NCBI RefSeq assembly: GCF_024972735.1
Contig: NZ_CP087723.1
Location: 2,914,001-2,978,000, forward strand
Direction: 5' to 3'
From: Halalkaliarchaeum sp. AArc-CO
GTDB taxonomy: Archaea > Halobacteriota > Halobacteria > Halobacteriales > Haloferacaceae
Length of the DNA: 64,000 nucleotides
Position numbers and translations under genes: made by a program. The notes beneath the pieces were generated by a model that made no database searches, was not told where the DNA came from, and saw only the letters and a list, made by a program, of their open reading frames with translations. Positions 8,194 to 64,000 of this stretch are shown here, piece by piece (the first letter of the stretch is position 1; every line of letters starts with the position of its first letter).

Positions 8194-8294
8194 ACGCGAA
8201 AAGGGGCACAGCGATCCGATAAACCCACCGTCCCGCATATCGGTCGTGATAATTCGAGGGTCACCGTTATGGGAGTGCTAACGGAGTTTCGAAC

Positions 8295-8729
8295 ATGGCA
8301 GCTACGGAACCGACGGTCGAGGCCACCAAGGTCCTCGAGTTCGGGCTGGGATCCGACAGGTACTGTCTGGACATCGACACCATCGACGAGATCGTCGACG
8401 CCGCCGAACTGACGCGAATCCCCAACTCGCCCCCCCACATCGAGGGCGTGATGGATCTCCGTGGAAAGACGACGACGATCGTCGATCCCAAGACAGTGTT
8501 CGAGATCGACGAGGCGGGCCCCCGCGACCGGATCGTCGTGTTCGACGAGAACGCACTCGAAGAGGGTGGAACCGTCGGCTGGATGGTCGACGAGGTGTTC
8601 CAGGTTCGGGACGTCGATCCCGAACGTGTCGACGAGAACACGATCGCCGACGACGACGGGATCCGCGGAATCGTGAAGTCCGACGACCGGTTCGTCGTCT
8701 GGGTCGACCCCTCCGTGTCTGTCGAGTGA
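8295..8729 (+). CDS. cheW: Chemotaxis coupling protein CheW
   Basis: CheW links receptors to CheA. The 144-residue single-domain protein has family hallmarks: VLEFGLGSDRYCLDIDTIDE at the start, then LTRIPNSPPHIEGVMDLRGK, TTIVDPKTVF, DRIVVFDEN, and VGWMVDEVFQVRDVDPE. It diverges from cheB. The next gene follows on the same strand 69 bases later but has its own TATA-like box. Confidence 0.94.
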   Translation: MAATEPTVEATKVLEFGLGSDRYCLDIDTIDEIVDAAELTRIPNSPPHIEGVMDLRGKTTTIVDPKTVFEIDEAGPRDRIVVFDENALEEGGTVGWMVDEVFQVRDVDPERVDENTIADDDGIRGIVKSDDRFVVWVDPSVSVE

Positions 8730-8797
8730 TACGTCTCGTTCTCATCATTGAAAACCGGGGACGAACACTTATCGGCGGTCCTGTCGCTCGTTCGAGT

Positions 8798-9487
8798 ATG
8801 CGCATCTCTAGTGGGGTCCCCGGGTTCGACGATATTGTCGAGGGCGGGTTTCCCGAGGGCCGGCTCTACGTCGTCAGCGGGCCCCCCGGAAGCGGCAAAA
8901 CGACGTTTTGCGCGCAGTTCGCCGCCGAAGGGGCCAGGGCAGACGAGAAGACGCTCTTCGTCAGCATGCACGAGACGAAACGCGACATCATCGAGGACAT
9001 GGCCGGCTACGAGTTCGGGTTCGATCACGCGGTGTCGACCGACCGGATCACGTTTCTCGACGCACTGTCCTCGGACGGTCGGCGGTTCTTCGGGCAGAAG
9101 GGCGAACGTCGAAACCAAGCCAACGTCTCGAACAGACTCACCGCCTACATCGACTCCAGGGACGTCAGCCGGGTCGTCTTCGACTCGACGATGCTTCTGC
9201 ATTATCTGCTCGACGACGAGGAGGACACGGCGATCCAGTTCCTGTCGGCGCTCAAACGGACCGACGCCACGACGATTCTCATCTCCGAGATGACTGATCC
9301 GAACGCCTATTCGCGGGAACATTACCTCGCCCACGGCGTCGTCTTCATGCACAACTACCTCCAGGAGGACGGGATGGAACGGGGGATACAGGTGTTGAAG
9401 ATGCGCGGCACCGACGTCGACACCCGGATCCACGACGTCGGGTTCGGTGCCGACGGGCTCGAGGTTGGGCAGGCGAAACGCCGGTGA
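8798..9487 (+). CDS. RecA-superfamily (KaiC/RAD55-like) ATPase
   Basis: The 229-residue protein is a single RecA-like domain of the kind annotated as KaiC-like or RAD55-family in haloarchaea. Walker A is GPPGSGKTTFC near residue 30, Walker B is RVVFDSTMLLHYLL near 128, and TTILISEMTD follows. A C-terminal GIQVLKMRGTDVDTRIHDV resembles KaiC-domain ends. ATG 8798 is chosen over an earlier in-frame ATG overlapping cheW because CTTATC lies about 28 bases upstream of it. Its position between cheW and the archaellum genes, and the kinship of ArlH to KaiC, suggest a taxis or motor-assembly role. That is inference only. Confidence 0.8.
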   Translation: MRISSGVPGFDDIVEGGFPEGRLYVVSGPPGSGKTTFCAQFAAEGARADEKTLFVSMHETKRDIIEDMAGYEFGFDHAVSTDRITFLDALSSDGRRFFGQKGERRNQANVSNRLTAYIDSRDVSRVVFDSTMLLHYLLDDEEDTAIQFLSALKRTDATTILISEMTDPNAYSREHYLAHGVVFMHNYLQEDGMERGIQVLKMRGTDVDTRIHDVGFGADGLEVGQAKRR

Positions 9488-9538: not shown

Positions 9539-11275
9539 TCAGATCGTCAGCAGGTTCCCCACGAGTATCCGCGTCGCGATCGCCGTCAGACAACCCAGCC
9601 ACGTGAGTAGCACGAAGTGGATGTAGCCGTTTGCGGGGTTGCCCCCGTCGATCGTGCGGATCATCACCGACGACAGCACCGCATTGAAGAGGATCACCAT
9701 GAGCAGGAGGAACTCGATGACGGGGATGTCGTAGACGCCGGCGTAGATGATCTGTCCGATGTCCATGTAATCGACGGAGAGATCCGCAGAGAGGTCCGCC
9801 AGGATGATGACGATCTCGAGGCCGATGAAGAAGGCGAACGCCGACGCTGCAGTGATCCCGTACACCAGCCCGATGAGCGTCACGGCCGACTGACGGCGCT
9901 GTTCGCGCAGCTGGTTGACCGCACTCATGTTCTTCGAAATCAGTTCGCCGAGCTGTTTGGGATCCCCGCCCATCTGCCGACCGACGAGATACATCTCGGA
10001 GAACTTCTGGATGAGATACGATCGGGTGTCGACGGTGAACTCCCGCCAGGCGCCCTCCTGGCTCAAGCGCATGTTGAGCCGGCGGTACAGCCGCTCGACC
10101 GACGGCGACAGCGCGCCGAAGTCCTTCTTTCGCAGGCTCTCGAGCACCTTCGAGGTGGTCGACTGCTTTGCGCTCTCGGTCGCGCCCAGCGCCCGGATGA
10201 AGGAGGGGAACGCCTGATCGCGGGCGGTGATCGCCTTCTCCTCGCGACGGAGAATGATCCCCGTAAGGAGCAGCGGCGTCAGGGGGACACACAGGTACAG
10301 CGGTTGCCGGACATCGTCGAGGAACCACAGCAGTCCGGGGAGGCCGGGGCCGATCCCCAGCAGTCCGGCCCCGGTGATCCAGATGAGCGCGAACGTGCTC
10401 ACTCCCCCAACCGCGAAGGCGGCGTACAGCTGTTTGTCGCGTCTGATCCGGGTTTCGGGGTGGTACCAGATCGGATCGTACGGCGACAGCGTCCGGATCG
10501 CGAGGTAAAACCCCGCCTGCACGAACGCGAACAGCACGATAACCGCTGCGACCGTCGCCGTCGGATCCGTGCCGGTGAGGATCGGCAACACGACCGCAAA
10601 CACCAGCGCGAACGTCATCGAGAGGATCATCGAGATGTACAGGTCCTTCATCACCTCGAGGTTCGCCAACGCCGACTCGTAGACGGTCTCGTAGTTCGAG
10701 AGCATCACGTCCAGTTCGGAAAGCAGGAAGTCTTCGAGCGGCTGTCCGGCGGCGACGGTGTAGCCGAGCCGGTCGAAGAAGTCCGCCATCACGTCGGAGG
10801 GGACCTCCTTCGCCCGGCGGCGGCAGGCGTCGTCGAGGCTCTGGTTCCAGGTGTCTACGAGATGGACGATCCGACCGATTTCCTCGGCTGCGACCCCGTA
10901 CTCCTCCTCGTTTGCGATCGTTCGGAACACTTCCATCCGATCGATGTTCGTCGTCGACAGCACCGTCATGTGGGTCATGACGAGATGCATCTGGTTTTCG
11001 ATGTGGGTCCGCCGGCTGTTGATGTACAGCTTGGGGTACAGCGCCGCCCCCGCAAACACGAGGGCGCCGACGAACGGGAAGATCGCCCGGATGGGGGCCG
11101 CGAACGGGAGCAGGAACGCGGCCACGACAGTGCCCGCAAGAAGCAGCGTCGACGGGAGGAGCACGTAGCCGACGTACTGCTGTTTCGGGATGTCGATCTT
11201 CTCGTAGGAGTCCAGCAGGTCCTCGGTGAACGCGACGGCGTTCGCGATCGTGGATCCTCCCTGTGACGTGGCCAT
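9539..11275 (-). CDS. arlJ: Archaellum membrane platform protein ArlJ (FlaJ)
   Basis: ArlJ is the polytopic membrane platform for archaellum assembly, related to TadC/PilC of type IV pili. The 578-residue protein has hydrophobic blocks near residues 45-90, 210-265, 285-345 and at the end, and two cytoplasmic T2SSF-like regions (GYTVAAGQPLEDFLLSE and the later QKFSEMYLVGRQMGGDPKQL). It begins MATSQGGSTIANAVAF one base downstream of the arlI stop. The order arlI-arlJ and this length are standard for haloarchaea. Confidence 0.95.
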   Translation of the reverse strand: MATSQGGSTIANAVAFTEDLLDSYEKIDIPKQQYVGYVLLPSTLLLAGTVVAAFLLPFAAPIRAIFPFVGALVFAGAALYPKLYINSRRTHIENQMHLVMTHMTVLSTTNIDRMEVFRTIANEEEYGVAAEEIGRIVHLVDTWNQSLDDACRRRAKEVPSDVMADFFDRLGYTVAAGQPLEDFLLSELDVMLSNYETVYESALANLEVMKDLYISMILSMTFALVFAVVLPILTGTDPTATVAAVIVLFAFVQAGFYLAIRTLSPYDPIWYHPETRIRRDKQLYAAFAVGGVSTFALIWITGAGLLGIGPGLPGLLWFLDDVRQPLYLCVPLTPLLLTGIILRREEKAITARDQAFPSFIRALGATESAKQSTTSKVLESLRKKDFGALSPSVERLYRRLNMRLSQEGAWREFTVDTRSYLIQKFSEMYLVGRQMGGDPKQLGELISKNMSAVNQLREQRRQSAVTLIGLVYGITAASAFAFFIGLEIVIILADLSADLSVDYMDIGQIIYAGVYDIPVIEFLLLMVILFNAVLSSVMIRTIDGGNPANGYIHFVLLTWLGCLTAIATRILVGNLLTI

Positions 11276-11276
11276 G

Positions 11277-12947
11277 TTAGACGTTCCGGTGCATGTCGAA
11301 CGGTAGCCCCTCGACGCCGTCGCGCTGGAAGGCGTCGATCGTCTCGTTCACCTCGTGGTAGCCGAGGATCCCCTCCTGGATCATCCGCTCGACGAGTTCG
11401 GCGCGGAACGCCAGGTCGTCGTAGATGTCGCGGGTGTCGGCGTAGCCGAGCAGCGTCGCGATCTGCTCTTCGAGCACGTAGGAGTTGTTCATTCCCTGGA
11501 AGACGATCTCGTCCTCGACGGGGTCCCAGGAGAACACCTCGCGGGTGATGACGCCGTCCATCTGCTTCGAGTAGCCCTCGATCTCCTGGACGCTTGTCAC
11601 TCGGCGCAACACCTGGTCGCCCTGCTTGACCCGGTTTTGAAACAGCGCGACGTCGGCGTTGTCCATGAACGTCTCGGGGACGTTGATCGGGTCGGAGGTG
11701 AACCGCTGGATCATCGAGACGATGTCGGAGGCGTGGAACGTCAACATCACCGGGTGGCCGGTCTGGGCCGCCTGGAACGCCATCCGCCCCTCCGCGCCGC
11801 GGACCTCCCCGACGATGATGTAATCCGGACGGGAGCGCAGCGCCGCCGCCACGAGGTCGAACATGTCGACGTCCGAGGAGCCCTCACCGGCCCCCTCACG
11901 GGTGAGCAGCTGCTGCCAGGTGTTGTGCGGCGGGATCACCTCGGCGGTGTCTTCTGCGGTGTAGATCTTCGAGTCGCTCGGGATGAACGACAGCGACGCG
12001 TTGAGCGTCGTCGTCTTCCCGGAGGCGGTCTCCCCGACGACGAAAACCGTCTGTTCGTTCTCGAGACACAGCCACAGGTACGCTGCGAGCTCCGGCGAGA
12101 GCGTTCCCCAATGGGTGATCTGGTTGATCGACAGCGGGGTCTCCTGGCCCTGCCGGATCGTCAGCGACGGCCCCTTCAGGGAGACGTCGTCGGAGTAGAT
12201 GATGTTGATACGCGAACCGCCCGGGAGCGTGGAGTCGACGATCGGATCCGAGTCGGAGACGGGATCGCCCATCCGTTCGCCCATGTTTCGAAGCCAGCTA
12301 TCGAACTGCTCCGGGCTGCCGAAGTCGATCGTCGTCTCGAGCATCCCGAACACGTCGTGGTCGACGTGACACTCGTGGGGACCGATGACGTGAATGTCCT
12401 CGTTCGCTGGATCGCGCATCACCGGTTCCAGCGGGCCGTAGCCGACGATATCGCGGTTCAATCGATATCGGATGTTCTCGTAGGTCTCCTTCGACACCGA
12501 GACCGTCCCCCAGTTGAGGGCCTTCTTGACGGAGTCGAGCCGGCCCGACTGCCGCGGTTCGACGTGTGTCACCTCCTCGAGTAACTCCTCGATGAGATCG
12601 TCGTACTCGGTCTCCGACTCCGGGGCAGCGTGTTGCCCGCTCACGGTCAACAGCTCGTCTTTCACCCGGTCGAGCACCTGCGACTCCGCGCCGGAAAGCT
12701 CCGGCTCGATGGCGTAGTACTTCGTGTCCTGCCCGATGTCGCCGTACACGTGACAGTAGATCGGCCCCCCGACCGGGTAGAGCACGTTCGGCCGGTCGGA
12801 CTCGTACTCGTCTTTCGCCTCTTCGATGAACTGCGGGAACTCGCCGGTGATCTGCTTGAACTTCCGCAGGTGGTCCCGGAGGTGGGGCCGCCGCATCGCT
12901 GCCTGGCGGAGTTCGTCCGACGGTTTGGTCGTCCCGTGTTCGGTCAT
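11277..12947 (-). CDS. arlI: Archaellum motor/assembly ATPase ArlI (FlaI)
   Basis: ArlI is the secretion-superfamily ATPase that drives archaellin export and rotation. The 556-residue protein has an N-terminal domain, a family DIHVIGPHECHVDHDVFGML stretch, Walker A VVGETASGKTTTLNA near residue 310, an Asp box TAEDTAEVIPP, Walker B-region DYIIVGEVRGAEG, and the His-box stretch QAAQTGHPVMLTFHASD. It lies between arlH (38 bases upstream) and arlJ (one base downstream), so the three genes are probably cotranscribed. Confidence 0.97.
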   Translation of the reverse strand: MTEHGTTKPSDELRQAAMRRPHLRDHLRKFKQITGEFPQFIEEAKDEYESDRPNVLYPVGGPIYCHVYGDIGQDTKYYAIEPELSGAESQVLDRVKDELLTVSGQHAAPESETEYDDLIEELLEEVTHVEPRQSGRLDSVKKALNWGTVSVSKETYENIRYRLNRDIVGYGPLEPVMRDPANEDIHVIGPHECHVDHDVFGMLETTIDFGSPEQFDSWLRNMGERMGDPVSDSDPIVDSTLPGGSRINIIYSDDVSLKGPSLTIRQGQETPLSINQITHWGTLSPELAAYLWLCLENEQTVFVVGETASGKTTTLNASLSFIPSDSKIYTAEDTAEVIPPHNTWQQLLTREGAGEGSSDVDMFDLVAAALRSRPDYIIVGEVRGAEGRMAFQAAQTGHPVMLTFHASDIVSMIQRFTSDPINVPETFMDNADVALFQNRVKQGDQVLRRVTSVQEIEGYSKQMDGVITREVFSWDPVEDEIVFQGMNNSYVLEEQIATLLGYADTRDIYDDLAFRAELVERMIQEGILGYHEVNETIDAFQRDGVEGLPFDMHRNV

Positions 12948-49466: not shown

Positions 49467-49494
49467 GTCGAACGAGGAAGGAAATCAGATATAA

Positions 49495-49511
49495 CAGTTG
49501 TTGGCAATGTG
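49495..49511 (+). repeat. Left terminal inverted repeat of the large transposon
   Basis: Perfect 17-base match to the reverse complement of 59081-59097. A further TTATTCA at 49519-49525 matches the other end at the same offset. Confidence 0.9.
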
Positions 49512-49554
49512 GGTGATGTTATTCAATTCGAGAGGGTCGAAGGCGGAACCTCTT

Positions 49555-51425
49555 TCAGACGCTGAACTTCAGGTAAAAATCCTTCCGAATCATCTCACTG
49601 AATTCTGATAACTCCCCCTCGGGAACTTCCCCAATTTCGAGTGACGCCGGGTCGTCAATCATGTTACTCAGGAACACGACCGCCTTCCAGTATTTCCCGT
49701 GCTTTCCGAGGTCATGATCGTCATCCCGGTCGGCACCAATCGCGTTCGCCACTGTCCACATGTTGTACAGCAGCACCGCGTACCCGAACAGGAATATCCG
49801 GTGTTCAATCTGGCTTGATCCTGACTGTGGTAGAAACCGGTTCTTGATCACTCGATATGAGGTTTCTACACCCCATCTTCCGCGGAATTTCTCAGCCAGT
49901 ACCTCCGCGCCGTTTCGCTCCTTGGTGGCGAACTCTCGCGGTTGGTGTAGAACTGCGTCAGCGCGTCGGTCGGGTCGTCAAAGTCCTCTTTCTGGAGACG
50001 CGATTTCTTCTCTTCCGGCAGCACGAACATGTAGTCGCGTTCGTCCTTGACGTCGCCGACGCCCCACCGGAACATGTCCCACTCCTTGTCTTCTTCGAGG
50101 ACCTCTTTGACCTCCTGAAGCTTGTCTGAGCCCTTCTTGCCCTTGATGATGAAGTCGGCCTCGCTCCGGACTTTGGTCGCTACGCCGCCTTGGTAGAACT
50201 CGCTGTCTAGGTAGACCCAATCGATGTCGAACTTCGCCGTAGCGAACCGCAGCAGCCGATCAACCACGCCATCCAGGTTCGAGGCCGACTTCACCGGAAG
50301 CGACACGACCGTGATCGGCGTGTTCGTACCGACGAGAGCCAGCGTAGCGAACTTCCACGCGTAGGCGTAGTTGCGACCAGCCTTCGTCCCCGAGACCCAC
50401 TCGGGAATCTCGCCGTCCTCGTACGTGCCGAACCACGGCCACGGCGTCACGTCGATGGCGACTTCCACCGTGTCCCCGAAGTAGTCGTACTCCTCTTCGA
50501 GCAGCTGGATCATCGACTCGTTCGCCGCCAGGTACATCGCCGTGATTTCACGGCGGTCGGACTTGGCGAGGTGCGTGACGAAGTTGCGGCGCTTGGGTGG
50601 TTCACTACCCCACAGCCACGGCTTTCCCTCGATCACTTCCTGCGAAGTCTCCATGCTCGTCCCATGAAGACAGGCGACATCCAGCAGTTTGAACAGCACG
50701 TTCTTTTCGTGGGTGAGGTTGTTAGAGCGCTTGATCTGAAGGAATTTCAGGGCCTTCTGACGAAGATCGCGCGTGATTAGCTGGAGATCGCGTGGGCCTT
50801 CACCATCGGAAGCGAGAGACGGTGGGGCAGGTACGAGTTCTTCGTGTTTTGTCCCTTGGACGAATTCGATTACGTCATCCTGAAGCCGGTCAAAGTACGG
50901 TTGGAAGAGTTCTTCGACATCATCTTGATACCGAGACAGCGTCGGCTGAGTCACGGGCTCGGAGAGATTCAGCTCATCATCGTACTTTCCGGTGTTCTCA
51001 CCTGACGATTTGGTAATACTATTCACCGATTCGTCTTTGAGTAGATTCGCCAGCAACAATGAGCGGACCAACTCATCAACAGCAAATTTCTGTCCGAACG
51101 ATGGGAGTTCATCGACGTGTCCGTGGCCAGCTCGGAGCTCCAACTCTCCGACGGCACTGGCCAGATCGTCGTGTCTGATGATGTTCTGAAACAGTTGTTG
51201 CTTCAGGTTCTTATACGCGGGATCGCTGGTCTTGATGAAGGTACCCTTCCCGTCCCTGAGCGACTCTTCTGGATCAAGATCGCCGTGAATTAACTCGTAC
51301 TCCTCTTTGAGAAAGTCCTGGATCGATTCGATCCGAGGTAGCTGCGACTCGTCGGTATCCCCACCGCTGTCTCCCGGCTCAAACGTGTATTCCGTCTTTT
51401 CGGGGTCGTAATCTGAATCGTCCAC
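49555..51425 (-). pseudogene. DDE (IS4-superfamily-like) transposase, frameshifted
   Basis: From GTG 51425 the frame encodes about 500 residues ([20 protein letters not shown] near the start) with catalytic-region Asp residues in [19 protein letters not shown] and [19 protein letters not shown]. Near 49935 an extra AG turns an expected CGC-GAG-TTC-GCC into CGC-GAG-AG-TTC, and the first frame stops at 49866. The downstream frame continues [20 protein letters not shown] then [20 protein letters not shown], which holds the third catalytic residue (Glu) and the YREK-like signature, and runs to 49555. The intact enzyme would be about 620 residues. A TTTAAAAG box lies about 28 bases upstream. I cannot name the IS family. 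Confidence 0.85.
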
Positions 51426-51805
51426 TGTTCGTAGATATTTTCGATATCTTTTAAATTCTGCCAGTCAAACACACACGCTCTTACGCAAAACAGTGGAATA
51501 TACTCAACATCCAGACATTGGTCCTGCCTAGCTTGCAAGATATAGAGCTTGTAGTCATCACCTGAGTAAGTAGCGCGGTTACGCATTTCTTCCCGGGATA
51601 TGAGAACCGGACGATACACTTATTTGGCCTTTGTGGAGATTAGTGGTATGGGGCGTTATCGTTCCCACCAGTCCGTAAAGCGTGTTTCCGGACTCGTACG
51701 CGCCACTACCCCATATGGGGATTCCCACTTCTGTATCTTGGCTGGGCGTACCTGTTTTGGCTTCCGGTAGTTGCGTCAGACGCCTCGGTCTGGTCGTACC
51801 CGAAC
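51426..51805. other. Intergenic/decayed region between transposase and CPBP gene
   Basis: A 9-bp perfect inverted repeat, TCCACTGTT (51421-51429) and AACAGTGGA (51489-51497), brackets the transposase promoter and could be a transposase-binding operator. From about 51710 the plus strand encodes residues that fit the missing N-terminus of the CPBP protease but without a start codon in frame. A short frame from ATG 51649 ends within 40 codons. No copy of the 17-base transposon end is present here. Confidence 0.45.
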
Positions 51806-52534
51806 GTGGTTCTGTTCCTGATTGGCGGGGTAAGTCCCCTTCTGGCTGGACTCGTGCTGTTGTGGATGAACCACGGGCGAGCTGGGTTCGCCGATCTCCG
51901 TCGGCGATTGCTCGAAGTCGGTCGGATCAGTGGCCGATGGTGGCTGATCATCGTGCTGTTCTACCCGCTGTTCAATCTCGGTACGGCTGCTGTTGCGCTC
52001 GTCACCGGATTCACTGCCGAACCACTGGCGTTCATCGGCTCTGACCGACTGTTTGACCCCGGAGCGTTGTTCTTCTTGCTTGCGGTCGCGCTCCTCTTCC
52101 CCGCAATCGAAGAGATCGGTCTTCGTGGCTACTGGTTCGATCAACTCCAGGCACGCTGGAGCGCACTCGTGAGCAGTTTGATTTTGGGGACTGTGTGGGC
52201 GCTGTGGCACGTTCCACTTTTCTACATGTCCGGCTACTACGAGGGGACGACGTTCCAGCCCGAACTGTGGTGGTTTCTACCGAGCATCGTTCTGACTGCG
52301 ATCATCGGAACGTGGGTCTACAACAATACTGCCCGGAGCGTCCTCGCGGTCATTGTCTTTCACTTCTTCGGAAACTTCACCGGCGAAACGATGGGATTTG
52401 CTGCCGAACTGTATCCCCTCGTCCACATCGGGACTGTGATTGTCGCGCTCGCGCTCGTGATCTGGTTCGGGCCGAGTTCGCTACGAGGCCGGGATACTCC
52501 ACGACCGGTACCGGACTGGGGAATTGACCGCTAA
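51806..52534 (+). CDS. CPBP-family intramembrane protease, probably damaged at the 5' end
   Basis: The family (CAAX protease/bacteriocin-processing, ABI) consists of multi-pass membrane metalloproteases. Active-site motifs are intact: [20 protein letters not shown] (Glu-Glu-x3-Arg), [16 protein letters not shown] (His), and [16 protein letters not shown] (His and Asn). The first usable in-frame start is GTG 51806, but the frame stays open upstream and encodes [20 protein letters not shown], a convincing first membrane helix. This suggests the true start was lost by a frameshift near 51710. Bacterial relatives serve in self-immunity or phage exclusion; the role here is unknown. Confidence 0.75.
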
Positions 52535-52576
52535 GCTCCGTGAGCGATACGCACGCTCTATTTAACAGCATCGACT

Positions 52577-54064
52577 TCACTCGTAGGTCATTTTCGGGAA
52601 TACTGCCATCAGGAACAGGAGTATTGCAACGAAAGAAAGCGAACCACCGAGCCAGTCAGCAAGTCTCGGCAGGAACAGGTCAGCCACTGGATATGCTACT
52701 CCCCACCAGAGGACGAGTAAGACAACCGCTACGCTTGCAACGACCCCTCGCTTCAGACGAGAATGGTCTGCAAGCGGCACGAATGTTCTTGTCCCATTCC
52801 GAAGGTCGCGGCCGAGAAGCCATGTTAGCCCTACCCCAGCGATTCCGAGAACGCCTGCCCCTATTCGACCGGCAGTTTCTACCCGGGAATATGTACGAGC
52901 GAGGGAGATTGTCCCGAGTCCGCGACTCTCGGCCCATTCTGTGAGTATGGCAGCGATCAACCGGAGGCTCCGGTTACTGTTGGTGAGAATCACGATCCCG
53001 TCGCCGGTCTCCGGGATGCTGTGATACCAGGTCCACGTACCGGTTCCCTGCCCTCCATGTGAGACTGCTCGATGCCCATCTGGAAGGGTCTCGACGAGGT
53101 GACCAAGCCCATACCCATCTGAGCCGTATCCGTAAAACCCGGTCGTCTCCACTTCCTTCGAGTGCAGTTCCGCAACACGCTCGGAACTCAACACCTCTCT
53201 ACCGGCCTCTCGTCCGTCGGCTGCTGGCATCCCTGCTGCAACAATGGTAGCGATGTCTTCCACGGTCGCATACAGCATCCCGTGGGCCAGCGGTGCTTCA
53301 CGATACGGCTCGACTGCTTCACCGGCCCGCTCGTGGCTGGTCGCAAGCCCCGATTGCAGGGCTTCATCCAGATCGAACGTCGCTGTGTCCATTCCAAGCG
53401 GCTCGAACACGGTGGCTTCCATGTACTGTGCGTAGTCTTGTCCGGTAACCTCCTCGACGAGCAGTTCGAGTAACACATAGCCGGGATTCGAATATCGGAA
53501 TGTCGTTCCGGGAGGGTCTTCCGGTCGTGCTGGTGGCGCACCTGCGTTCCCGCGGACAGCTTCCTCTAAGGAGGGAATCGACGACTCGGGTGGATAGTTC
53601 GTGTATATTCCCTCTGGAAGACCTGCAGTATGACTGAGGAGCCGTCGGACGGTCACCTCGTCCCACGCATCCGAATCGGGGAGTTTTGCAGTCGGGATAT
53701 ACTCGCTGACCGGGGTATCAAGATCAACCTCGTCTCGCTCGACAAGGACCATTACACCCCACGCAGTGATCGATTTCGTGATCGACTGTGGTCGGCAGAG
53801 CGTGTCCGGCGTCATCGGGCAGTTCGTCTCCCGATCAGCGTCGCCGTATGCATTAGCCCACGATACTTCACCATCGGTGATGACGGCAACGGCCGCACCG
53901 GGAACATCGTATCGGTTGAGCAGTGTCGGGACGCGGTCATCCAGAACGGATGCAAGGTCTTTGTCGTCACCAGCACTTCGCTCCGAGAGAACAGAAATAC
54001 CAGCAAAACCCGTGACCGCGGCGATAGAAGACCGACGGAGATAGTCGCGGCGTGAGTACTCCAT
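52577..54064 (-). CDS. Serine hydrolase, class C beta-lactamase/DD-peptidase fold, membrane-anchored
   Basis: The 495-residue protein begins MEYSRRDYLRRSSIAAVTGF, a twin-arginine-like signal, so it is probably exported folded. The beta-lactamase domain (about residues 35-370) has the nucleophile motif QSITKSITAWG (Ser-x-x-Lys), YSNPGYVLLELL (Tyr-x-Asn), and AVSHGGQGTGTW in place of the KTG-like motif. The C-terminal 120 residues contain three or four membrane helices (ETAGRIGAGVLGIAGVGLTW, VASVAVVLLVLWWGVAYPVA, FVAILLFLMAVFP). Archaea lack murein, so the substrate is more likely a peptide or ester. It lies inside the large transposon. Confidence 0.88.
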   Translation of the reverse strand: MEYSRRDYLRRSSIAAVTGFAGISVLSERSAGDDKDLASVLDDRVPTLLNRYDVPGAAVAVITDGEVSWANAYGDADRETNCPMTPDTLCRPQSITKSITAWGVMVLVERDEVDLDTPVSEYIPTAKLPDSDAWDEVTVRRLLSHTAGLPEGIYTNYPPESSIPSLEEAVRGNAGAPPARPEDPPGTTFRYSNPGYVLLELLVEEVTGQDYAQYMEATVFEPLGMDTATFDLDEALQSGLATSHERAGEAVEPYREAPLAHGMLYATVEDIATIVAAGMPAADGREAGREVLSSERVAELHSKEVETTGFYGYGSDGYGLGHLVETLPDGHRAVSHGGQGTGTWTWYHSIPETGDGIVILTNSNRSLRLIAAILTEWAESRGLGTISLARTYSRVETAGRIGAGVLGIAGVGLTWLLGRDLRNGTRTFVPLADHSRLKRGVVASVAVVLLVLWWGVAYPVADLFLPRLADWLGGSLSFVAILLFLMAVFPKMTYE

Positions 54065-54212
54065 GTAGTTCGATTGGCATGAGAGAGAATAATTCTATTT
54101 TGGATTCCCAGACTGTCGGAATGCTGCATACGCGCCTTGTATCCATCACGGCGTATTCTGAACGAAAAGCAGCGCGAGTTCCCCGCCCCACCGTGGGCGG
54201 GGGTGAAGCGCG

Positions 54213-54620
54213 TCACTCCGCCGCGTGTTCCGTCTCTTCGATATACCGTTCAACCACTTCCTCAGACATCGCTCCCGTCGTCCCAACGTAGTATCCGACT
54301 TTCCAGAATCCGCCACCCCAGAAATACGACTCTCGAATCTCGGGGTACCGTTCCAGCAAGTGCTTGCCAGAGTACGACTTGAATTGCCGAGCGATGTTCG
54401 CAGGGCTGTACTTCGGGTCTGTTTGCACGAACAGGTGAACGTGGTCGTCTGCAATCTCCAAGGCGAGAATCTTGTGACCGAAGTGGTCAGCAGTCTCACC
54501 AAACAACTCCCGCACATCGTCTTCAACTACGTTGAGAACCGGATGGCGGTACTTTGGACACCACACGAAGTGATACTTACAGGAACTAACCGAATGTGCA
54601 TGACTACGGTATTCTTCCAT
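54213..54620 (-). CDS. tnpA: IS200/IS605 HUH transposase TnpA
   Basis: This Y1 transposase moves the element as single-stranded DNA. The 135-residue protein has SSCKYHFVWCPKYRHPVLNV, the HUH metal motif in ALEIADDHVHLFVQTDPKYS, a GGGFWKVGYYVGTTG stretch, and the nucleophile Tyr helix EEVVERYIEETEH near the end. Length and motifs are complete, so it may be active. It diverges from tnpB with only a few dozen bases between them. Confidence 0.95.
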   Translation of the reverse strand: MEEYRSHAHSVSSCKYHFVWCPKYRHPVLNVVEDDVRELFGETADHFGHKILALEIADDHVHLFVQTDPKYSPANIARQFKSYSGKHLLERYPEIRESYFWGGGFWKVGYYVGTTGAMSEEVVERYIEETEHAAE

Positions 54621-54664
54621 CTTGAATCCCTATATTTATGACAGTCTGGAACGAGTGTCAAAGC

Positions 54665-55969
54665 ATGGGTGAAGAAGCCACAAAGACGATTCAGACGCGC
54701 CTTCACATCGCGTCTGGTGAGCGGTCGTGGCTTCACGACGCCCGCCTTGCATCACGCGAGATATTCAACGACACCATCAGCCTCACACAACAGGGCCACA
54801 CGCGCACTGAGATACAGAACGAGGTTGACCGCGACGACTTCTTGCGGAACAACAAGTGCGCGGTCGTCGGCAAAGCCCTCCAAACGTGGGACTCATACCA
54901 GTCACTCCTTAACTGGTGGGAAGAACAGGATGATCCTGATGGAGGCAAGCCAACGCCTCCGAGTACGGACAAATCTGGTGCGTATCCGGTCGTGATGGCA
55001 CACACGGAAGGCTACCGCCTCACCGTAGATGAAGACACGAACCGCGTCCAGTTCCGCATCAGCCCGAAACCCTACAAGAAGGTGAAAGGACACCTACGCG
55101 GCGGCCCAGATGCGATGGACGAACTTCGAGACGCTATCACGTCGGATGAAGTGGATGTTGGGCAGGCCGAACTCCTGTACCGCGATGGCGTGTACTACCT
55201 ACACGTCACGGTCACACGCGAGTTCGACGTGCCCGACCCCGACACCAGCGACACGCTTGTTGGCGTGGACATCAACGAGCGCAATATCGCTCTCACCGCC
55301 CTCGACCGCGACACGATGCGGACGAAGGGCACGCTCGTCCTCGACTACGGACGAGTCAAGCAGGAACGCCAACGCTACCACACCATCACGAAACGCTGTC
55401 AGGAACACGGTAAGACGAGCATCCACCGGAAACTCGGTGACAAGGAGGAGCGGTTCACCGAGTGGGTGTTGCATCGGCTTTCCCGTGCTGTCGTGGAGTT
55501 CGCAGAGCAATTCTCGACTCCGGTTATCGTGTTCGAGGATATGAGCGGCATCCGCGACGAAATCAAGTACGGGACGTATATGAACCGCCGGTTGCACAAA
55601 CTGCCGTTCCACAAGTTCGAGAAGTTTGTCTCGTACAAGGCGACGTGGCAAGAGATTCCCACGGACACAGTGGACGCTTATTACAATTCGCAGACGTGTT
55701 CGTGCTGTGGTGAGCGTGGCAGTCGGCAGGGACGGCGGTTCCGATGTGCGAACGACGAGTGTGATGTGACACAAGACCACGCCGACCGGAATGCGTCTGT
55801 GAACATTGCATGGCGCGAGAAGGCGAAATTCGACGGTAACACGACGAATTACCGGACTCACAAAACCCAGCCACAGGTTCGGTTGGTGCGTCTGTCCGGG
55901 TCGGGACGCGTAAGCCGCCCACCCTCATCCCGCTCGCTTGCCGAGCAGGGAGTGCTACTGCACGGCTGA
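54665..55969 (+). CDS. tnpB: TnpB RNA-guided nuclease of an IS605-type element
   Basis: TnpB proteins are RNA-guided DNA endonucleases ancestral to Cas12. The 434-residue protein has RuvC residues in LVGVDINERNIALTAL (Asp), VIVFEDMSGIRDEI (Glu) and QDHADRNASVNIAW (Asp), and a zinc finger CSCCGERGSRQG with CANDECD. All catalytic residues are present. ATG 54665 (MGEEATKTIQ) is preferred over ATG 54638 because TATATTTA (54631-54638) overlaps the earlier ATG and lies about 30 bases before the later one. The guide (omega) RNA is expected to overlap its 3' end. Confidence 0.93.
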   Translation: MGEEATKTIQTRLHIASGERSWLHDARLASREIFNDTISLTQQGHTRTEIQNEVDRDDFLRNNKCAVVGKALQTWDSYQSLLNWWEEQDDPDGGKPTPPSTDKSGAYPVVMAHTEGYRLTVDEDTNRVQFRISPKPYKKVKGHLRGGPDAMDELRDAITSDEVDVGQAELLYRDGVYYLHVTVTREFDVPDPDTSDTLVGVDINERNIALTALDRDTMRTKGTLVLDYGRVKQERQRYHTITKRCQEHGKTSIHRKLGDKEERFTEWVLHRLSRAVVEFAEQFSTPVIVFEDMSGIRDEIKYGTYMNRRLHKLPFHKFEKFVSYKATWQEIPTDTVDAYYNSQTCSCCGERGSRQGRRFRCANDECDVTQDHADRNASVNIAWREKAKFDGNTTNYRTHKTQPQVRLVRLSGSGRVSRPPSSRSLAEQGVLLHG

Positions 55970-56010
55970 GGGAACTACAAAAGCCTCGGGCCACCGCGCC
56001 CGAGGTTGTT
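55860..56010 (+). ncRNA. Probable TnpB omega RNA region (right end of IS605 element)
   Basis: In characterised TnpB elements the guide RNA comes from the end of tnpB and the right end of the element, with the guide lying just beyond the boundary. Here the tnpB tail and the hairpin at 55984-56005 occupy that position. Boundaries are approximate and no promoter is pinpointed; the call rests on family knowledge. Confidence 0.35.
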
Positions 56011-56040
56011 TACGTTGGTGGCCAATAGAGATGTAGCTGA

Positions 56041-56112
56041 GAAGCGCGGGATGGCTGAAAATGAGACCGGTGTTGAAGGCACCGACCTCGCGCTTCGTGG
56101 AGCACACGAAGC
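56041..56112 (+). promoter_or_regulatory. Leader with mutually exclusive hairpins
   Basis: GAAGCGCG (56041-56048) pairs perfectly with CGCGCTTC (56089-56096), enclosing an inner stem CGGTG/CACCG (56068-56072 with 56080-56084). GCTTCGTG (56092-56099) pairs perfectly with CACGAAGC (56105-56112), ending one base before ATG 56113. The two outer stems share bases 56092-56096 and cannot form together, as in attenuators and riboswitches. Folding and function are untested. Confidence 0.4.
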
Positions 56113-56445
56113 ATGAAGAACTCAACCCTAAAACCAGATGAAGACATCGGACTGAAGCTGTCAGACGATATGAAGCAGCGGGATAACCTGCTGCTGTACC
56201 ATGACAGTGAACCGCACTGCAGGGAGCCGCTTGAAGCCAACGCGAAGACACAACTGGAGAAGTTAGAACACTCCTGCGAGAGGATTACTGATGATTACCG
56301 GGACGGTTGTGGGAATGAACGACCTGATCCGCCAGCAGCACATGGGTGGCGTCGTTTACACCTCTCTCGACGCGCCGAGGAACGCACCCGATACTCGCTG
56401 ACCTTTAAACGTGATCAGGTCACAAAACTGGCTCACCATGATTGA
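56113..56445 (+). CDS. Hypothetical protein upstream of the RAMP operon
   Basis: The 110-residue frame begins MKNSTLKPDEDIGLKLSDDM. Its first 60 residues have protein-like helix periodicity (EANAKTQLEKLEHSCERITD). The rest is Arg/His-rich (AAHGWRRLHLSRRAEERTRY) and looks less coding, so the gene may be truncated or frameshifted near 56310. It overlaps the first RAMP gene by eight bases. No family is recognised. Confidence 0.35.
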   Translation: MKNSTLKPDEDIGLKLSDDMKQRDNLLLYHDSEPHCREPLEANAKTQLEKLEHSCERITDDYRDGCGNERPDPPAAHGWRRLHLSRRAEERTRYSLTFKRDQVTKLAHHD

Positions 56446-57301
56446 AGACATCGACCACGACGTATTCGTGCGGATTCAGACTGACCTGCTGGTGGTCGGT
56501 GACAGCATCATGACCGACAGACACCACGCCTCGAACGGCAACTACGAGGACGACGATCCGCAGAACCAAATCGGCGGCATCATCCCCGCCTTTCCACTCT
56601 CGGGCTGGCTCCGCCACGGAATGGAGCGCGTCGTCTCCGAGAACGACGGTACTGCCTGCCATCCCGGCGAGGCCAACGCGAATTTCATGAAGGAAGATGT
56701 CTACGAGCGCGACCTCGATGACGGCTACCACGAGAAGGGCGCGTGCGTCGATGACCCGAAAGAAGACCACGGCTGCGTGGTTTTCGACCTCTTCGGCGGC
56801 TTCGGCAACCAGCCGGGAAAGGTGATGCGTCGCCCGATCAAGTTCAACCCCGTCCGCTCCAGCGTGGACTACACGCGCGGACAGGCCGAAGGCCACTACC
56901 GCCGGCTCAACCGGAACATCGTCTCCCGCAATCGGGAGGACAACCGCGAACCGCTGCGGAACGCCGAAGTGGACGCCGTCGCCAATCTTGACGGTTGCTG
57001 GCACCTCTCCTTCCGGGAGACGAAGCCCGAGTTCATCGGCCTGCTCGCCGAGGGGATCGACTTCCTCGATGGGCACAAGACGGACTTCATGCACCAGCTC
57101 GGTGGCGCGCGGAACTTCGGCGCGGGGATCGTCGATTGCCACCTCATCAATCCGCTCTACGAGGAACGCGAACTGAAGCGCGTCTTCGACCGCGGGAAGG
57201 GCAACACGAACAAGATGGACGAGAAAGACGACCAGTGGGCCGAAGAGTATCGCCCGGCATTCGTGGAGGCGCTGGAAGAGCGCATCGAGGAGGGGCCGTA
57301 G
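56438..57301 (+). CDS. RAMP-superfamily Cas7-like protein (Csm3/Csf2-like)
   Basis: The 287-residue protein has a RAMP layout: a first ferredoxin-like strand VFVRIQTDLLVVGDSIM, then IPAFPLSGWLRHGMERVV, which matches the conserved helix of Csm3/Cmr4/Csf2 backbone proteins. It also has HGCVVFDLFGGFGNQPGKVM (the Cys...LFG element) and a late glycine-rich loop QLGGARNFGAGIVDCHLI. Cas7-type proteins coat guide RNA in effector complexes. ATG 56438 has CCTTTAAAC about 30 bases upstream, fitting leaderless transcription. It heads a tightly packed three-gene operon. No CRISPR array is nearby, so the bound RNA, if any, is unknown. Confidence 0.78.
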   Translation: MIEDIDHDVFVRIQTDLLVVGDSIMTDRHHASNGNYEDDDPQNQIGGIIPAFPLSGWLRHGMERVVSENDGTACHPGEANANFMKEDVYERDLDDGYHEKGACVDDPKEDHGCVVFDLFGGFGNQPGKVMRRPIKFNPVRSSVDYTRGQAEGHYRRLNRNIVSRNREDNREPLRNAEVDAVANLDGCWHLSFRETKPEFIGLLAEGIDFLDGHKTDFMHQLGGARNFGAGIVDCHLINPLYEERELKRVFDRGKGNTNKMDEKDDQWAEEYRPAFVEALEERIEEGP

Positions 57302-58084
57302 ATGCCCGAGAACGTCACCCTCAGCGACTTCCAGGGCGACGGCGGCCAAGACGTGATGGTCGCAGCCTACCGCCACGACGCCCACAAGCTGAACGGCGAG
57401 ACGCACAACTACGCGCCGGACACCTTCCACGGCGTCCCCGTCAACCAGACCGTCCCGCACGGCGCGGACGGCGACGCGTCGGCGCTCTCACGGCCTAACG
57501 GGAAGCCCGAACAGACGGTAGACAACCACGAAACGCACTACCGGCTCTCGCTGCTGACGGGCGACTCTCACTACGACCCCGAGGAGTTCTCACGCCCGCG
57601 CCTCTCTGAGGCCATCAACGACCTGCTGACGGGCTCCGACCCCGAGGCGATGCATCGGGCATGGCTCACGTCGGACGTAGCGAGCGGGTTCAACGAGAGT
57701 ATCTACTACCCGTACACGAGCTTGAAGTACCACACGCTGCTCGTAGCGTCGCTCTTGGACAACTACCGCGCCGGTCACGAGTTCCCCGATCTCCTCCTGG
57801 TCGTGGACGATGCCGAGGAGATCGTGCCCCACCGGACGGTCTACGCGGGCGACCGCTTCGCGCTTCGAATCGACGAGGACGCGGACGCGCAACCGTGGGC
57901 GCGCTTTGGAAGCCGCCCGTGGCAGTCGTGGGCGTCGGCGTGGAAGCGCCTCACCGCGCACCCGCTCGACGTTAATCACGACAAGCACGACATGGTTCTC
58001 GATGCGAACCTCCGTCGGATCTGGAGTTGGAGTACCGCACTCCAGTACATCGAGGATCTCGAAACCCGGAGGGAGAACGCATGA
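57302..58084 (+). CDS. Unrecognised protein between two RAMP genes
   Basis: The 260-residue protein starts directly after the stop of the Cas7-like gene and overlaps the next gene by four bases, so it is surely cotranscribed. Visible segments are FQGDGGQDVMVAAYRHDAHK, FHGVPVNQTVPHGADGD, a helical RPRLSEAINDLLTGSDPEAM and HTLLVASLLDNYRAGHEFPD, a strand DLLLVVDDAEEIVPHR, and WARFGSRPWQSWASAWKRLT near the end. In CRISPR effectors this place is held by a large or small subunit (Cas8, Csf1 or Cas11 types). I see no zinc finger, HD or HEPN motif to decide. Function unknown. Confidence 0.7.
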   Translation: MPENVTLSDFQGDGGQDVMVAAYRHDAHKLNGETHNYAPDTFHGVPVNQTVPHGADGDASALSRPNGKPEQTVDNHETHYRLSLLTGDSHYDPEEFSRPRLSEAINDLLTGSDPEAMHRAWLTSDVASGFNESIYYPYTSLKYHTLLVASLLDNYRAGHEFPDLLLVVDDAEEIVPHRTVYAGDRFALRIDEDADAQPWARFGSRPWQSWASAWKRLTAHPLDVNHDKHDMVLDANLRRIWSWSTALQYIEDLETRRENA

Positions 58085-59016
58085 CCCGCATCCAGCAGGT
58101 TCATTGGGAACTCGACATGGACTACCTCGGGCATCCGTACTACGTCTCGGGGAACGCGATTTACCACGCGCTCGGGATGCAACTGGAGCACGATGTCCAC
58201 CAGCACATCAACGCCAGCCACGGGATGTTCGTGCCGGGGCAGTTCGGGACGTTCCCCGAGGAACACTCGCAGAGCGGGATTCGCCCGTACATGGGGTCGT
58301 CGCTCCCCGACGTGGAGAGATACGACGACCTGTTCCTCTTCCGGCACCCAGACCATCCGTGGCTGCTCGATACCCGACCCCGCGACGGGCTGAACGCCCA
58401 CGACATCCGATTCCAGAGCGGGATGCCCGCGCTGGCTCACGAGACGATCATGGGCCGGCCCGACGACGCTCGGAAACAGCAGCAGACCACGCGTTGGTAC
58501 GTGAACGCCTACTTGCACGCCGATGACCCGGACGTTCTGCCCCTCGGCGAGGACGTGCTTGACGGCCTCCAGTTCGGAGGCAAACGGAACTACGGCTACG
58601 GGACGACCACGCTGAAAGACACGCAGGTCGTTGACCTGGAGGCAGTGGACTACTCGCGTCTCGAAGACGGCGAGGCGTTCATCCTCGAACTCGTGACGCC
58701 GTTCGTCCTCCGGTCGGAGTACCCCAAGGCGAACAACGTGGACGTGCCGTGGTGGTGGAGCGTAGACGACGAAGCGCAGCTGCGCCACCGCCTGGAGAAG
58801 GTCATCGAGGGCGGCGACGTATACGAGTTGGAGACCGTCGATCACGGCGTGGTCGTTGGCTACGATGGCGACCGTCCGGTGGAGACCGCGATGTCCGGAC
58901 TCACCCGCGTCGGGAACCACTCGAAGTACGGCTTCGGAGAGCTTCGAGTGAAGCCCGTCACTCCAGATGAAACGAACGTCAAGAAACAGATAGAAAAGCC
59001 GAAGTCGGAGCACTGA
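58081..59016 (+). CDS. RAMP-superfamily Cas5/Cas6-like protein
   Basis: The 311-residue protein begins MTRIQQVHWELDMDYLGHPY, a ferredoxin-like first strand. YVSGNAIYHALGMQLEHDVH follows with the helix and His positions seen in Cas6/Csf5- and Cas5-type RAMPs. Two Gly-rich loops are evident: QFGGKRNYGYGTTTLKDTQV near residue 175, and the C-terminal GNHSKYGFGELRVKPV, the hallmark RAMP loop. The many His residues near the N-terminus could support RNA cleavage as in Cas6, but this is inference. The start overlaps the previous stop by four bases. It is the last gene before the right transposon end. Confidence 0.75.
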   Translation: MTRIQQVHWELDMDYLGHPYYVSGNAIYHALGMQLEHDVHQHINASHGMFVPGQFGTFPEEHSQSGIRPYMGSSLPDVERYDDLFLFRHPDHPWLLDTRPRDGLNAHDIRFQSGMPALAHETIMGRPDDARKQQQTTRWYVNAYLHADDPDVLPLGEDVLDGLQFGGKRNYGYGTTTLKDTQVVDLEAVDYSRLEDGEAFILELVTPFVLRSEYPKANNVDVPWWWSVDDEAQLRHRLEKVIEGGDVYELETVDHGVVVGYDGDRPVETAMSGLTRVGNHSKYGFGELRVKPVTPDETNVKKQIEKPKSEH

Positions 59017-59080
59017 CAAACGAATAATGACTGGCAAGGATTCCGCAGTGTCCAGGTCGGTCAGACTGAATAAAGTAGAT

Positions 59081-59097
59081 CACATTGCCAACAACTG
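59081..59097 (-). repeat. Right terminal inverted repeat of the large transposon
   Basis: Reverse complement of the 49495-49511 end, preceded inward by TGAATAA at 59067-59073. ATAA follows at 59098-59101 and matches the bases before the left end. Confidence 0.9.
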
Positions 59098-59125
59098 ATA
59101 AAGCCGGAAATACGACCACCACACC

Positions 59126-63089: not shown

Positions 63090-64000
63090 CTACGTTTCTA
63101 TTTCCTCGTCGCCGGCGCCAGGCGCGTGTCGCTTCACGCGTTCGACCGCCTCGATACAGCCGGATCGGGAGGCGTACCCCTCGCCCGAATCGGCGATGAT
63201 GTTGCCGTTCCGGTGTCGCAGCCGCCAGCGCCACTCCCCGCCTTTGTCCTCGTACACCTCGAACGCGGCGCGTTCGACGTCGAGGACGTCCGCCTCGCGG
63301 GCGTACTCGCGAACGCGATCGACGGCCTCGATGCAGCCAGACCTGGCGGAGTAGCCCTCCCCAGAGTCTGCGATGACGTTCCCGTTCCGGTGGACGAGCC
63401 GCCAGCGCCACTCGCCGCCCTTGTCCTCGTACACCTCGAAGACGGCGTCGGTGTTGGTTTCTTCCTCGGGTTCGGTCCCCGGGTCGACGATCGGCGCCTC
63501 GGTAACGTTCTTCCGGACGCTTTCGAGTCCCTTCCGGGCGTCACTGCGGCGGGTGTATCCCTGGCCGGAGTCGCCGAGGATGTTCCCGTTCTCGTGGAGG
63601 AGCCGCCAGCGATACTGGCCGGCCCGGTCGCGGTACACCTCGAACGCCGCCGGGTCGATGTCGAGATAATCCGCCGCCGAAACGTGATCGCGGACGTTCC
63701 GCATCGCCCGCCGTGTGTTGGACTTCGAGGCGTACCCCTCGCCCGAGTCGGCGACGATGTTGCCGTTTTCGTGTCTGAGCCGCCAGCGCCACCGGCCGCC
63801 CTCGTCCTCGAACACCTCGAACGTGGCAGCGCTCTCGAGGTCCTCGTCGACGCTGGGTACCGCGAGGTCGGGTTCGTCGGCGTCTTCGGGAACCGGCTCG
63901 CCGTCCTCGGTCGTCGTCTCGACGGCCTCGGATTCGAGCCGCAGGACGCCCGCACCGAGCGCGTTCCGCATCACGCTGTGCATTCCCTGCTGGCACTTCT
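63090..64000 (-). CDS. Tandem YegP/DUF1508-repeat protein, start beyond window
   Basis: At least four full roughly 50-residue YegP-type repeats are visible, each reading like FEVYEDKGGEWRWRLRHRNG then NIIADSGEGYASRSGCIEAV. Although an ATG lies at 63983, the frame stays open to the window edge and the residues before and after it (KCQQGMHSVMRNALGAGV) match the end of another repeat. So the true start lies further on and there are at least five repeats. Relatives such as HVO_2922 are beta-rich dimers of unknown function. An acidic linker separates repeats one and two. Confidence 0.85.
   Translation of the reverse strand, partial: KCQQGMHSVMRNALGAGVLRLESEAVETTTEDGEPVPEDADEPDLAVPSVDEDLESAATFEVFEDEGGRWRWRLRHENGNIVADSGEGYASKSNTRRAMRNVRDHVSAADYLDIDPAAFEVYRDRAGQYRWRLLHENGNILGDSGQGYTRRSDARKGLESVRKNVTEAPIVDPGTEPEEETNTDAVFEVYEDKGGEWRWRLVHRNGNVIADSGEGYSARSGCIEAVDRVREYAREADVLDVERAAFEVYEDKGGEWRWRLRHRNGNIIADSGEGYASRSGCIEAVERVKRHAPGAGDEEIET

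Follow-up and report, generated by a model that had tools for sequence, protein, structure and literature searches.

A CRISPR-derived, array-less RAMP operon with a predicted miniature Cas10 and a covarying leader RNA on a haloarchaeal DDE transposon

What is the use of CRISPR-type RAMP genes at a locus with no CRISPR array? The question is raised by a stretch of 64,000 nucleotides from Halalkaliarchaeum sp. AArc-CO (NCBI RefSeq assembly GCF_024972735.1, contig NZ_CP087723.1, positions 2,914,001 to 2,978,000 of the forward strand), hereafter the window, which carries a three-gene RAMP operon at 56438-59016 on the + strand. Haloarchaeal RAMP sets of this kind (HRAMP), reportedly described by Makarova et al. 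in 2019, have been listed for years as array-less CRISPR derivatives of unknown mechanism. In this study, we show by comparison with related loci that the operon is a conserved unit, preceded by a covarying leader RNA, and that it lies in a transposon with inverted ends, target duplications and a transposase, two sister insertions of which have identifiable empty sites. Our preferred reading, to which we give a probability of roughly 60%, is that an array-less, type III-derived HRAMP effector, composed of Cas7, Cas5 and a miniature Cas10 that retains an HD site, is carried by a haloarchaeal DDE transposon for defence or competition.

The initial annotation had described three abutting or overlapping genes, glycine-rich RAMP loops in two of the products, a Cas7-like first and a Cas5/Cas6-like third protein, and a possible affinity to HRAMP. 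These points are borne out. The reading frames are confirmed: gene 1 abuts gene 2, which shares 4 nt (ATGA) with gene 3, and the order cas7-middle gene-cas5 is kept in most of the relatives fetched. In the family alignments the loops are conserved as GGARNFG in gene 1 and as GGxRxYGxG and GFGE in gene 3. As judged by its sequence matches, gene 1 is a Csm3-like Cas7; it matches PADLOC Csm3 models (E 7.8e-5; best family member 9.7e-7), the most frequent model being found in 15 of the 31 aligned members, and it stays below the cut-off of the Pfam family RAMPs (E 0.074). For gene 3, one PADLOC Cmr3 model matches all 33 aligned members (best E 7.4e-9), and the predicted fold is that of a RAMP protein. 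Its AlphaFold2 model (predicted local distance difference test, pLDDT, 73.9) matches Cas6 in Foldseek (E 7.2e-5) and, in VIA-align, a type VII effector chain that we take for Cas5 (Z 12.9), type III-D (12.1), Cmr3 of the Cmr complex (10.7), a Csm chain taken for Csm4 (10.0) and Cas6 (9.3). The sequence and fold matches of the operon point to type III, those of gene 3 additionally to the Cas5 of type VII. Sequence searches of the PDB with alignments of all three proteins returned nothing relevant, and no separate Cas11 or Cas6 was recognised in the operon.

HRAMP is described in PMC8730458 and PMC12669027 as a haloarchaeal, array-less group with diverged Cas5 and Cas7, a further conserved protein and affinity to type III; the associated nuclease is typically HNH or PD-(D/E)xK, according to PMC12669027. 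The window operon belongs to this group. It combines a diverged Cas7 and a diverged Cas5 in one haloarchaeal operon. Moreover, as first noted, it stands without array or adaptation genes: no array-like repeat (20-mers recurring at least three times at 40-100 nt) was found in the 64-kb window, to which the array search was confined, and a Cas1 search that was positive in 9 of 14 control genomes gave nothing in this genome, which is 99.9% complete. Of the 293 genomes of the order, 78 have Cas7 homologues, from 43 of 88 genera, and the 35 named loci are all from haloarchaea or archaeal metagenome-assembled genomes. By identity, the full-length proteins form two bands, at least 69% (clade A, which includes the window) and 54-60% (clade B); a single one stands at 35%. 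Within clade A, Cas7 identities of 91-98% between genera and families suggest a recent spread. Clade B (32 loci) agrees in gene content with the HRAMP descriptions in both papers; its genes mostly stand apart, and behind them come an RNase H-fold exonuclease in 30 loci and an HNH protein in 26, two members of each family having been checked with Pfam. Among the 64 clade-A loci, of which 52 have at least 2.5 kb of sequence after cas5, exonuclease and HNH were each met in one, the same locus L038, which has a second, clade-B copy nearby; PD-(D/E)xK nucleases were not searched for by themselves. Since PMC12669027 says "typically", a nuclease gene is not obligatory for HRAMP, and the window operon is placed in a clade of the group without the usual nuclease genes. 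Peptide patterns of HRAMP gave no match in viral contigs in a scan that detects close relatives only. A plasmid record that holds HRAMP has no annotated features. L038 is from Halosimplex pelagicum, where the clade-A operon (10001-12585) and the clade-B operon with exonuclease and HNH (20861-16123) stand a few kilobases apart in opposite directions.

Both clades conserve the middle protein, for which model and motif lead us to predict a miniature Cas10 that keeps the HD site and is without the cyclase. Its AlphaFold2 model has a pLDDT of 88.7 and a predicted template modelling score of 0.89. The first 25 rows of the Foldseek search are all chains of type III complexes, Cas10 by title and length (24 Csm1, one Cmr). 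VIA-align aligned 180 chains, 54 of them at Z of at least 2; the 50 shown are all Csm1/Csm complex chains at Z 9.6-13.0, and the three at Z 13.0 superpose with a root-mean-square deviation of 3.5-4.0 over 221-235 residues, covering model residues 11-260 and about residues 1-566 of the chains. VIA-align warns that a Z near 13 can reflect an arrangement common among helical proteins, a warning that is countered by the uniformity of the list and the breadth of the coverage. Residues R24, H25, D26, H28 and K29 do not vary across 35 sequences from both clades and stand where Cas10 has its initial HDxGK motif, a motif present in 16 of 19 Cas10 open reading frames (ORFs) extracted from archaeal genomes. 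A conserved GGDD was not found; these letters occur in one of the 35 members, in the C-terminal tail. Several results weigh against the assignment. The Foldseek E-values are weak (best 0.083, probability 0.80), a profile of the 19 Cas10 proteins gives one short, non-significant alignment (E 0.19, probability 0.3%), which falls exactly at the HD motif, PADLOC matched nothing in the 35 members, and family searches gave no relevant match for gene 2. The assignment depends on the predicted model; the sequence evidence by itself is not significant. Even so, the prediction makes doubtful part of the original statement that no Cas10, helicase or nuclease gene is present in the window; besides, the mobile unit itself includes a gene for a DDE transposase.

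This unit is a 9.6-kb transposon (49495-59097), of which the operon forms the right-hand module. Its right end was first noticed where similarity stops abruptly, 81 nt past cas5. The weight matrix used to scan for ends was built on 14 right ends, the window's included, so that these match by construction; the null maximum of 11.05 is the top score in 96 reversed loci. Around cas5, 59 of the 64 clade-A loci were testable (L033, L041, L050, L064 and L065 were dropped). Right ends above the null maximum are present in 46 of the 59 and both ends in 19; in the 39 loci scoring above 25, the right end lies 46-129 nt after cas5, within the 600 nt scanned. Identical 4-bp duplications, all of the form NTAN, flank the element in 18 of the 59 loci (17 found by script, L042 by hand). 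In five of these (L062, L070, L073, L077 and L079) the left end scores below the null maximum, and they rest on the duplication as well. The insertion in L068 has its empty site in three congeners at 86-91% identity, two of which match all 360 nt of the joined flanks; for the L067 insertion the empty site comes from other genera (68-76% identity), and the three that were aligned show ATAA once. On the other side of the balance, 41 of the 59 tested loci are without an exact duplication: contigs are short, or ends are degenerate, missing or exchanged, and in L063, L069, L080 and L081 the two copies mismatch. No contiguous empty site was found for the window insertion in 79 genomes, its own included, only the right flank being kept in a congener (G293, 91%), nor for the L084 insertion in 15 genomes of its genus, again including its own.

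Two further observations concern the ends. A stretch bounded by terminal inverted repeats in L130 (7212-10770, duplication GTAA) has no cas7 match and a shortened middle gene but still has cas5. Furthermore, an inner right-end motif, about AATAAAGAAATC, is recognisable where the outer repeat has been lost (L040, L046, L054, L086 and L088-L093); its persistence suggests that it may have a second role, for example as a terminator or a site for a protein.

The transposase is a relative of the ISH3 family, which ranks first in NCBIfam for each of the five transposases tested (E 2.3e-15 to 3.6e-35); every score is under the cut-off of 225 bits (best 121.5, in L038; window 56.5). The window copy itself has no Pfam match, and its frame is broken, so this copy is probably not self-mobile; an intact homologue of 618 aa is found in L032, which is from Haloferax sulfurifontis, and the four unbroken copies tested measure 609-686 aa. 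Cargo-bearing elements with exact duplications are 3.4-10.9 kb long. At E 1e-40 the transposase was found in 9 of 146 sampled genomes, of which seven carry clade-A HRAMP; in six of the seven it stands beside an HRAMP operon or remnant (in G028 a Cas7 remnant only). The suggestion that the RAMP genes had been co-opted by a transposon thus holds for an ISH3-related element bounded by terminal inverted repeats, and not for the TnpB element. Features of the element are collected in Table 1.

Table 1. Features of the transposon and its operon, in window coordinates
Feature	Position	Strand	Evidence or remark
Target duplication ATAA, left copy	49491-49494		identical to 59098-59101
Left terminal inverted repeat CAGTTGTTGGCAATGTG	49495-49511	+	exact inverted match to 59081-59097; weight-matrix score 25.8 vs null maximum 11.05
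DDE transposase gene, ISH3-related, frame broken	49555-51425 (ORFs 49866-51425 and 49555-49851)	-	NCBIfam NF033541 E 2.3e-15, below cut-off
Passenger gene, Rce1-like CAAX peptidase	51806-52534	+	PF02517 E 7.4e-14
Passenger gene, beta-lactamase-fold serine hydrolase	52577-54064	-	PF00144 E 3.8e-69
IS200/IS605 insertion	about 54151-56013		TnpA 54213-54620 (-), TnpB 54638-55969 (+); PF07282
Structured leader RNA	56037-56115	+	R1 match E 2.1e-6; covariation
Parts of the leader	strand A 56041-56049; hairpin 56068-56084; strand B 56089-56096; B:C hairpin 56092-56112; start codon 56113-56115	+	
110-aa ORF starting at the leader end	56113-56445	+	without Pfam match
Gene 1, Cas7 (Csm3-like)	56438-57301	+	PADLOC Csm3 E 7.8e-5; alignment A6
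Gene 2, predicted miniature Cas10	57302-58084	+	HD-type motif YRHDxHK; AlphaFold2 pLDDT 88.7; VIA Z 13.0 to Csm1; Foldseek E 0.083
Gene 3, Cas5 (Cmr3/Csm4/type VII Cas5-like RAMP)	58081-59016	+	Cmr3 model 33/33 members; VIA Z 12.9
Right terminal inverted repeat	59081-59097	-	ends 81 nt after cas5 stop
Target duplication ATAA, right copy	59098-59101		identical to 49491-49494

Is the operon then part of the transposon's business or only its freight? Relatives of the transposon without HRAMP exist in L154 (2.8 kb, ATAT), L129 (1.9 kb, ATAA) and, as a second copy, L158 (4.9 kb, TTAT; one end scoring 9.5), and they indicate that HRAMP is not required for movement; a transposase copy in G010 is a fragment away from HRAMP. 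Both facts count against our preferred reading, and the relatives fit the idea that an HRAMP locus was captured between ordinary insertion sequence ends and hitchhikes with no functional tie to transposition or leader. So do the clade-B loci, where the 600 nt behind cas5 hold no ends of this type (best score 4.2 among 32 loci, under the null maximum), and the occurrence of the leader RNA before other operons, described below. However, the narrow distance between cas5 and the right end and the occurrence of the joint unit in many genera suggest selection, or else one old capture that persisted, and we regard mere hitchhiking as rather unlikely.

The opposite possibility is that transposition is RNA-guided, the RAMP complex choosing where the transposase inserts, a task that CRISPR effectors have in CRISPR-associated transposons (CASTs). 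It would fit the fixed place of the operon at the right end, with the transposase, where present, towards the left end; the rarity of the transposase and its presence mostly in genomes with clade-A HRAMP; and the lack of the usual HRAMP nuclease genes in clade A. Yet the insertion sites have only NTAN in common, the transposase is of a stand-alone DDE type, and the HRAMP-less copies also carry matching duplications. In addition, the flanks of 20 elements (250 nt on each side) match the element's own interior no better than the flanks of other elements do, with a longest exact match of 11.5 against 11.6 on average and a best 24-mer match of 18.2 against 18.4. This argues against CAST-like guidance, within a test that covered guides encoded in the element. 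Guided transposition therefore seems very unlikely to us.

Upstream of the operon lies an 80-odd-nt leader that terminates at an ATG. Iterated nhmmer searches of the 3 kb upstream gave 39 matches in 38 of 59 clade-A loci, and the model R1, built from 16 clade-A leaders, gave 40 matches at E of at most 0.05 across 36 of 64 sources; a few of these matches lie apart from the operon. Over 38 distinct rows of the leader (alignment A3), 96.6% of the cells pair and both sides change in 16 of 21 pairs, with 81 double-changed cells; slid controls pair at 34-50%. Pairing is favoured in A3 because its rows were fitted to this leader model. An unfitted alignment of 16 sequences (A2) gives 96.7% pairing and 13 double changes, against 5.0 in shuffles. 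A second helix, B:C, pairs strand B with strand C, which adjoins the ATG, and excludes the first helix, A:B. In clade A, it also covaries: 88.7% of the cells pair, and the 28 rows show 28 double changes where shuffles give 11.1 (A8, from 29 of 31 sequences; L068 and L067 were left out as near repeats). All five covariation measures exceed shuffles in A3; in A8 and A2 the number of double-changed pairs (3 against 3.1 in A2) and the pair types do not. Clade B has the same arrangement in other letters, A:B with at least 7 pairs in 26 of 28 loci and B:C with at least 5 pairs in 24 of 28, and R1 finds no match better than E 0.031 in its 32 loci. This count (A7) takes 28 of the 32 loci, the pattern having given 30 distinct sequences; L102, L121 and L103, where the pattern caught the wrong place, and L109, which has the same letters as L108, were left out. 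L102, L103 and L121 have a leader-like stretch where one is expected, outside the count. Rfam gave no match to the leader in the window stretch and three loci searched.

The leader is not confined to HRAMP. R1 matches occur in 106 of 293 haloarchaeal genomes, up to six per genome, and 67 of the 106 have no HRAMP Cas7 match. Of 20 leader sites chosen for the lack of a known HRAMP Cas7, L130 and L132 hold the other two HRAMP genes and L143 a distant Cas7 fragment; at the remaining sites, among the matches listed, different small genes follow the leader. Its presence before other operons points to a general haloarchaeal leader that HRAMP uses, and not to a dedicated HRAMP guide. These data also bear on the idea that the leader RNA is itself the guide or cofactor of HRAMP, bound by Cas5 and Cas7 through the B:C hairpin like a CRISPR repeat. 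The leader precedes most of the HRAMP operons tested in clade A and was aligned in 28 of the 32 clade-B loci, and it ends in GAAGC or GAACCC after the hairpin, which calls to mind a CRISPR repeat with its handle; but a coding start, not a variable guide, comes after it, and together with the many leaders found apart from HRAMP this makes such a role distinctly unlikely. We rather suggest that the leader RNA acts as a two-state switch on operon expression, in which helix A:B would leave the start region free and helix B:C would close beside the start codon.

Two side observations on the leader may be added. In L142, three copies stand within 1.4 kb (8002-9346; two on the + and one on the - strand), each ahead of a small gene. 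By eye, a further hairpin in the coding start after the leader ATG seems to covary in L079, L078, L063, L042 and others, with the pairs GCCGGA/TCCGGC, GACGGA/TCCGTC and GGCGGA/TTCCGCC, while the encoded residues change.

Besides an RNA of its own, the initial annotation had proposed a genomic CRISPR RNA or the guide RNA of the neighbouring TnpB as the partner of the RAMP proteins. With no Cas1 found in the genome, a genomic CRISPR RNA is an unlikely partner, the arrays considered being those within the window. The TnpB unit belongs to an IS200/IS605 element, with a sot2652 RNA match at 55848-56033 (RF02657, E 1.8e-35). A 1914-nt copy, 86.5% identical, lies at a different place in L051, downstream of the HRAMP operon, and from this comparison the unit looks like an insertion independent of the carrier transposon; the TnpB guide RNA was rejected as HRAMP partner. 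Outside the transposon, the window encodes at 63090-63983 on the - strand a protein with four repeats (FEVYEDKGGEWRWRLRHRNGNIIADSGEGY and similar) that look like those of the DUF1508 type.

We come back to an array-less HRAMP effector carried for defence or competition. According to this proposal, Cas7 and Cas5 would cover an RNA, a rival mobile element would have its nucleic acid cut by the HD domain of the miniature Cas10, and the transposon would benefit through the protection of its host. Other transposons carry defence genes, and this general knowledge of transposon cargo, together with the predicted composition of HD-Cas10, Cas7 and Cas5, makes defence or competition the likeliest reading. 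What weighs against it is that no neighbour gene was met that defence alone would explain. There is a small chance of a broader variant, in which a minimal type III-like complex, possibly with the bistable leader or a host-derived RNA, acts in transposition or in the killing of rival elements and arose independently of the Tn7- and Mu-type CASTs.

Four features go beyond HRAMP as described: the prediction of a miniature Cas10, carriage by a transposon, a nuclease-poor clade and a covarying leader RNA. In the open literature searched, to which the search was limited, no report of a transposon-borne HRAMP or of an HRAMP Cas10 was found. The accessible text of the 2025 classification (PMC12669027) names Tn7-like, Mu-like and telomeric transposon carriers of CRISPR machinery, and the ISH3-related carrier links CRISPR-derived machinery to a transposon type outside those named there. 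If the middle protein is indeed a miniature Cas10 whose HD site is active, HRAMP would be a complete minimal type III-like effector, which can be tested by mutating two residues. Moreover, the defined ends and the associated transposase make the purpose of HRAMP directly testable by transposition and pull-down experiments in Haloferax. A separate gain is a covarying two-state leader RNA of haloarchaea without an Rfam match in the stretches searched.

Concerning known systems, the carrier resembles the ISH3 family in the best NCBIfam match of its transposases and in its 4-bp duplications, those of the family being 4-5 bp, and differs in its transposases, which score below the curated cut-off and measure 609-686 aa where unbroken, and in its cargo, with which elements that have exact duplications reach 3.4-10.9 kb. 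With CASTs it shares a CRISPR-derived effector within a transposon with defined ends and target duplications; it differs in having a single ISH3-related DDE transposase in place of Tn7 or Mu machinery, no array, and no interior match to the insertion site in the 20 elements compared. The operon is like type III (Csm/Cmr) systems in its Csm3-like Cas7, its Cmr3/Csm4-like Cas5 and the predicted Cas10 fold with an HD motif in the middle protein. Unlike these, it has no array in the window to supply CRISPR RNA, no Cas1 found in the genome, no conserved GGDD and no recognised Cas11 or Cas6. Like HRAMP as described, the window's clade is haloarchaeal and array-less, with diverged Cas5 and Cas7 and type III affinity, and its conserved middle protein may correspond to the further conserved protein of the descriptions. 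It differs from them in being without HNH and exonuclease, in its compact, abutting or overlapping genes and in being in part transposon-borne; to HRAMP as a whole, the present analysis adds a predicted Cas10 assignment for the middle protein and a leader RNA.

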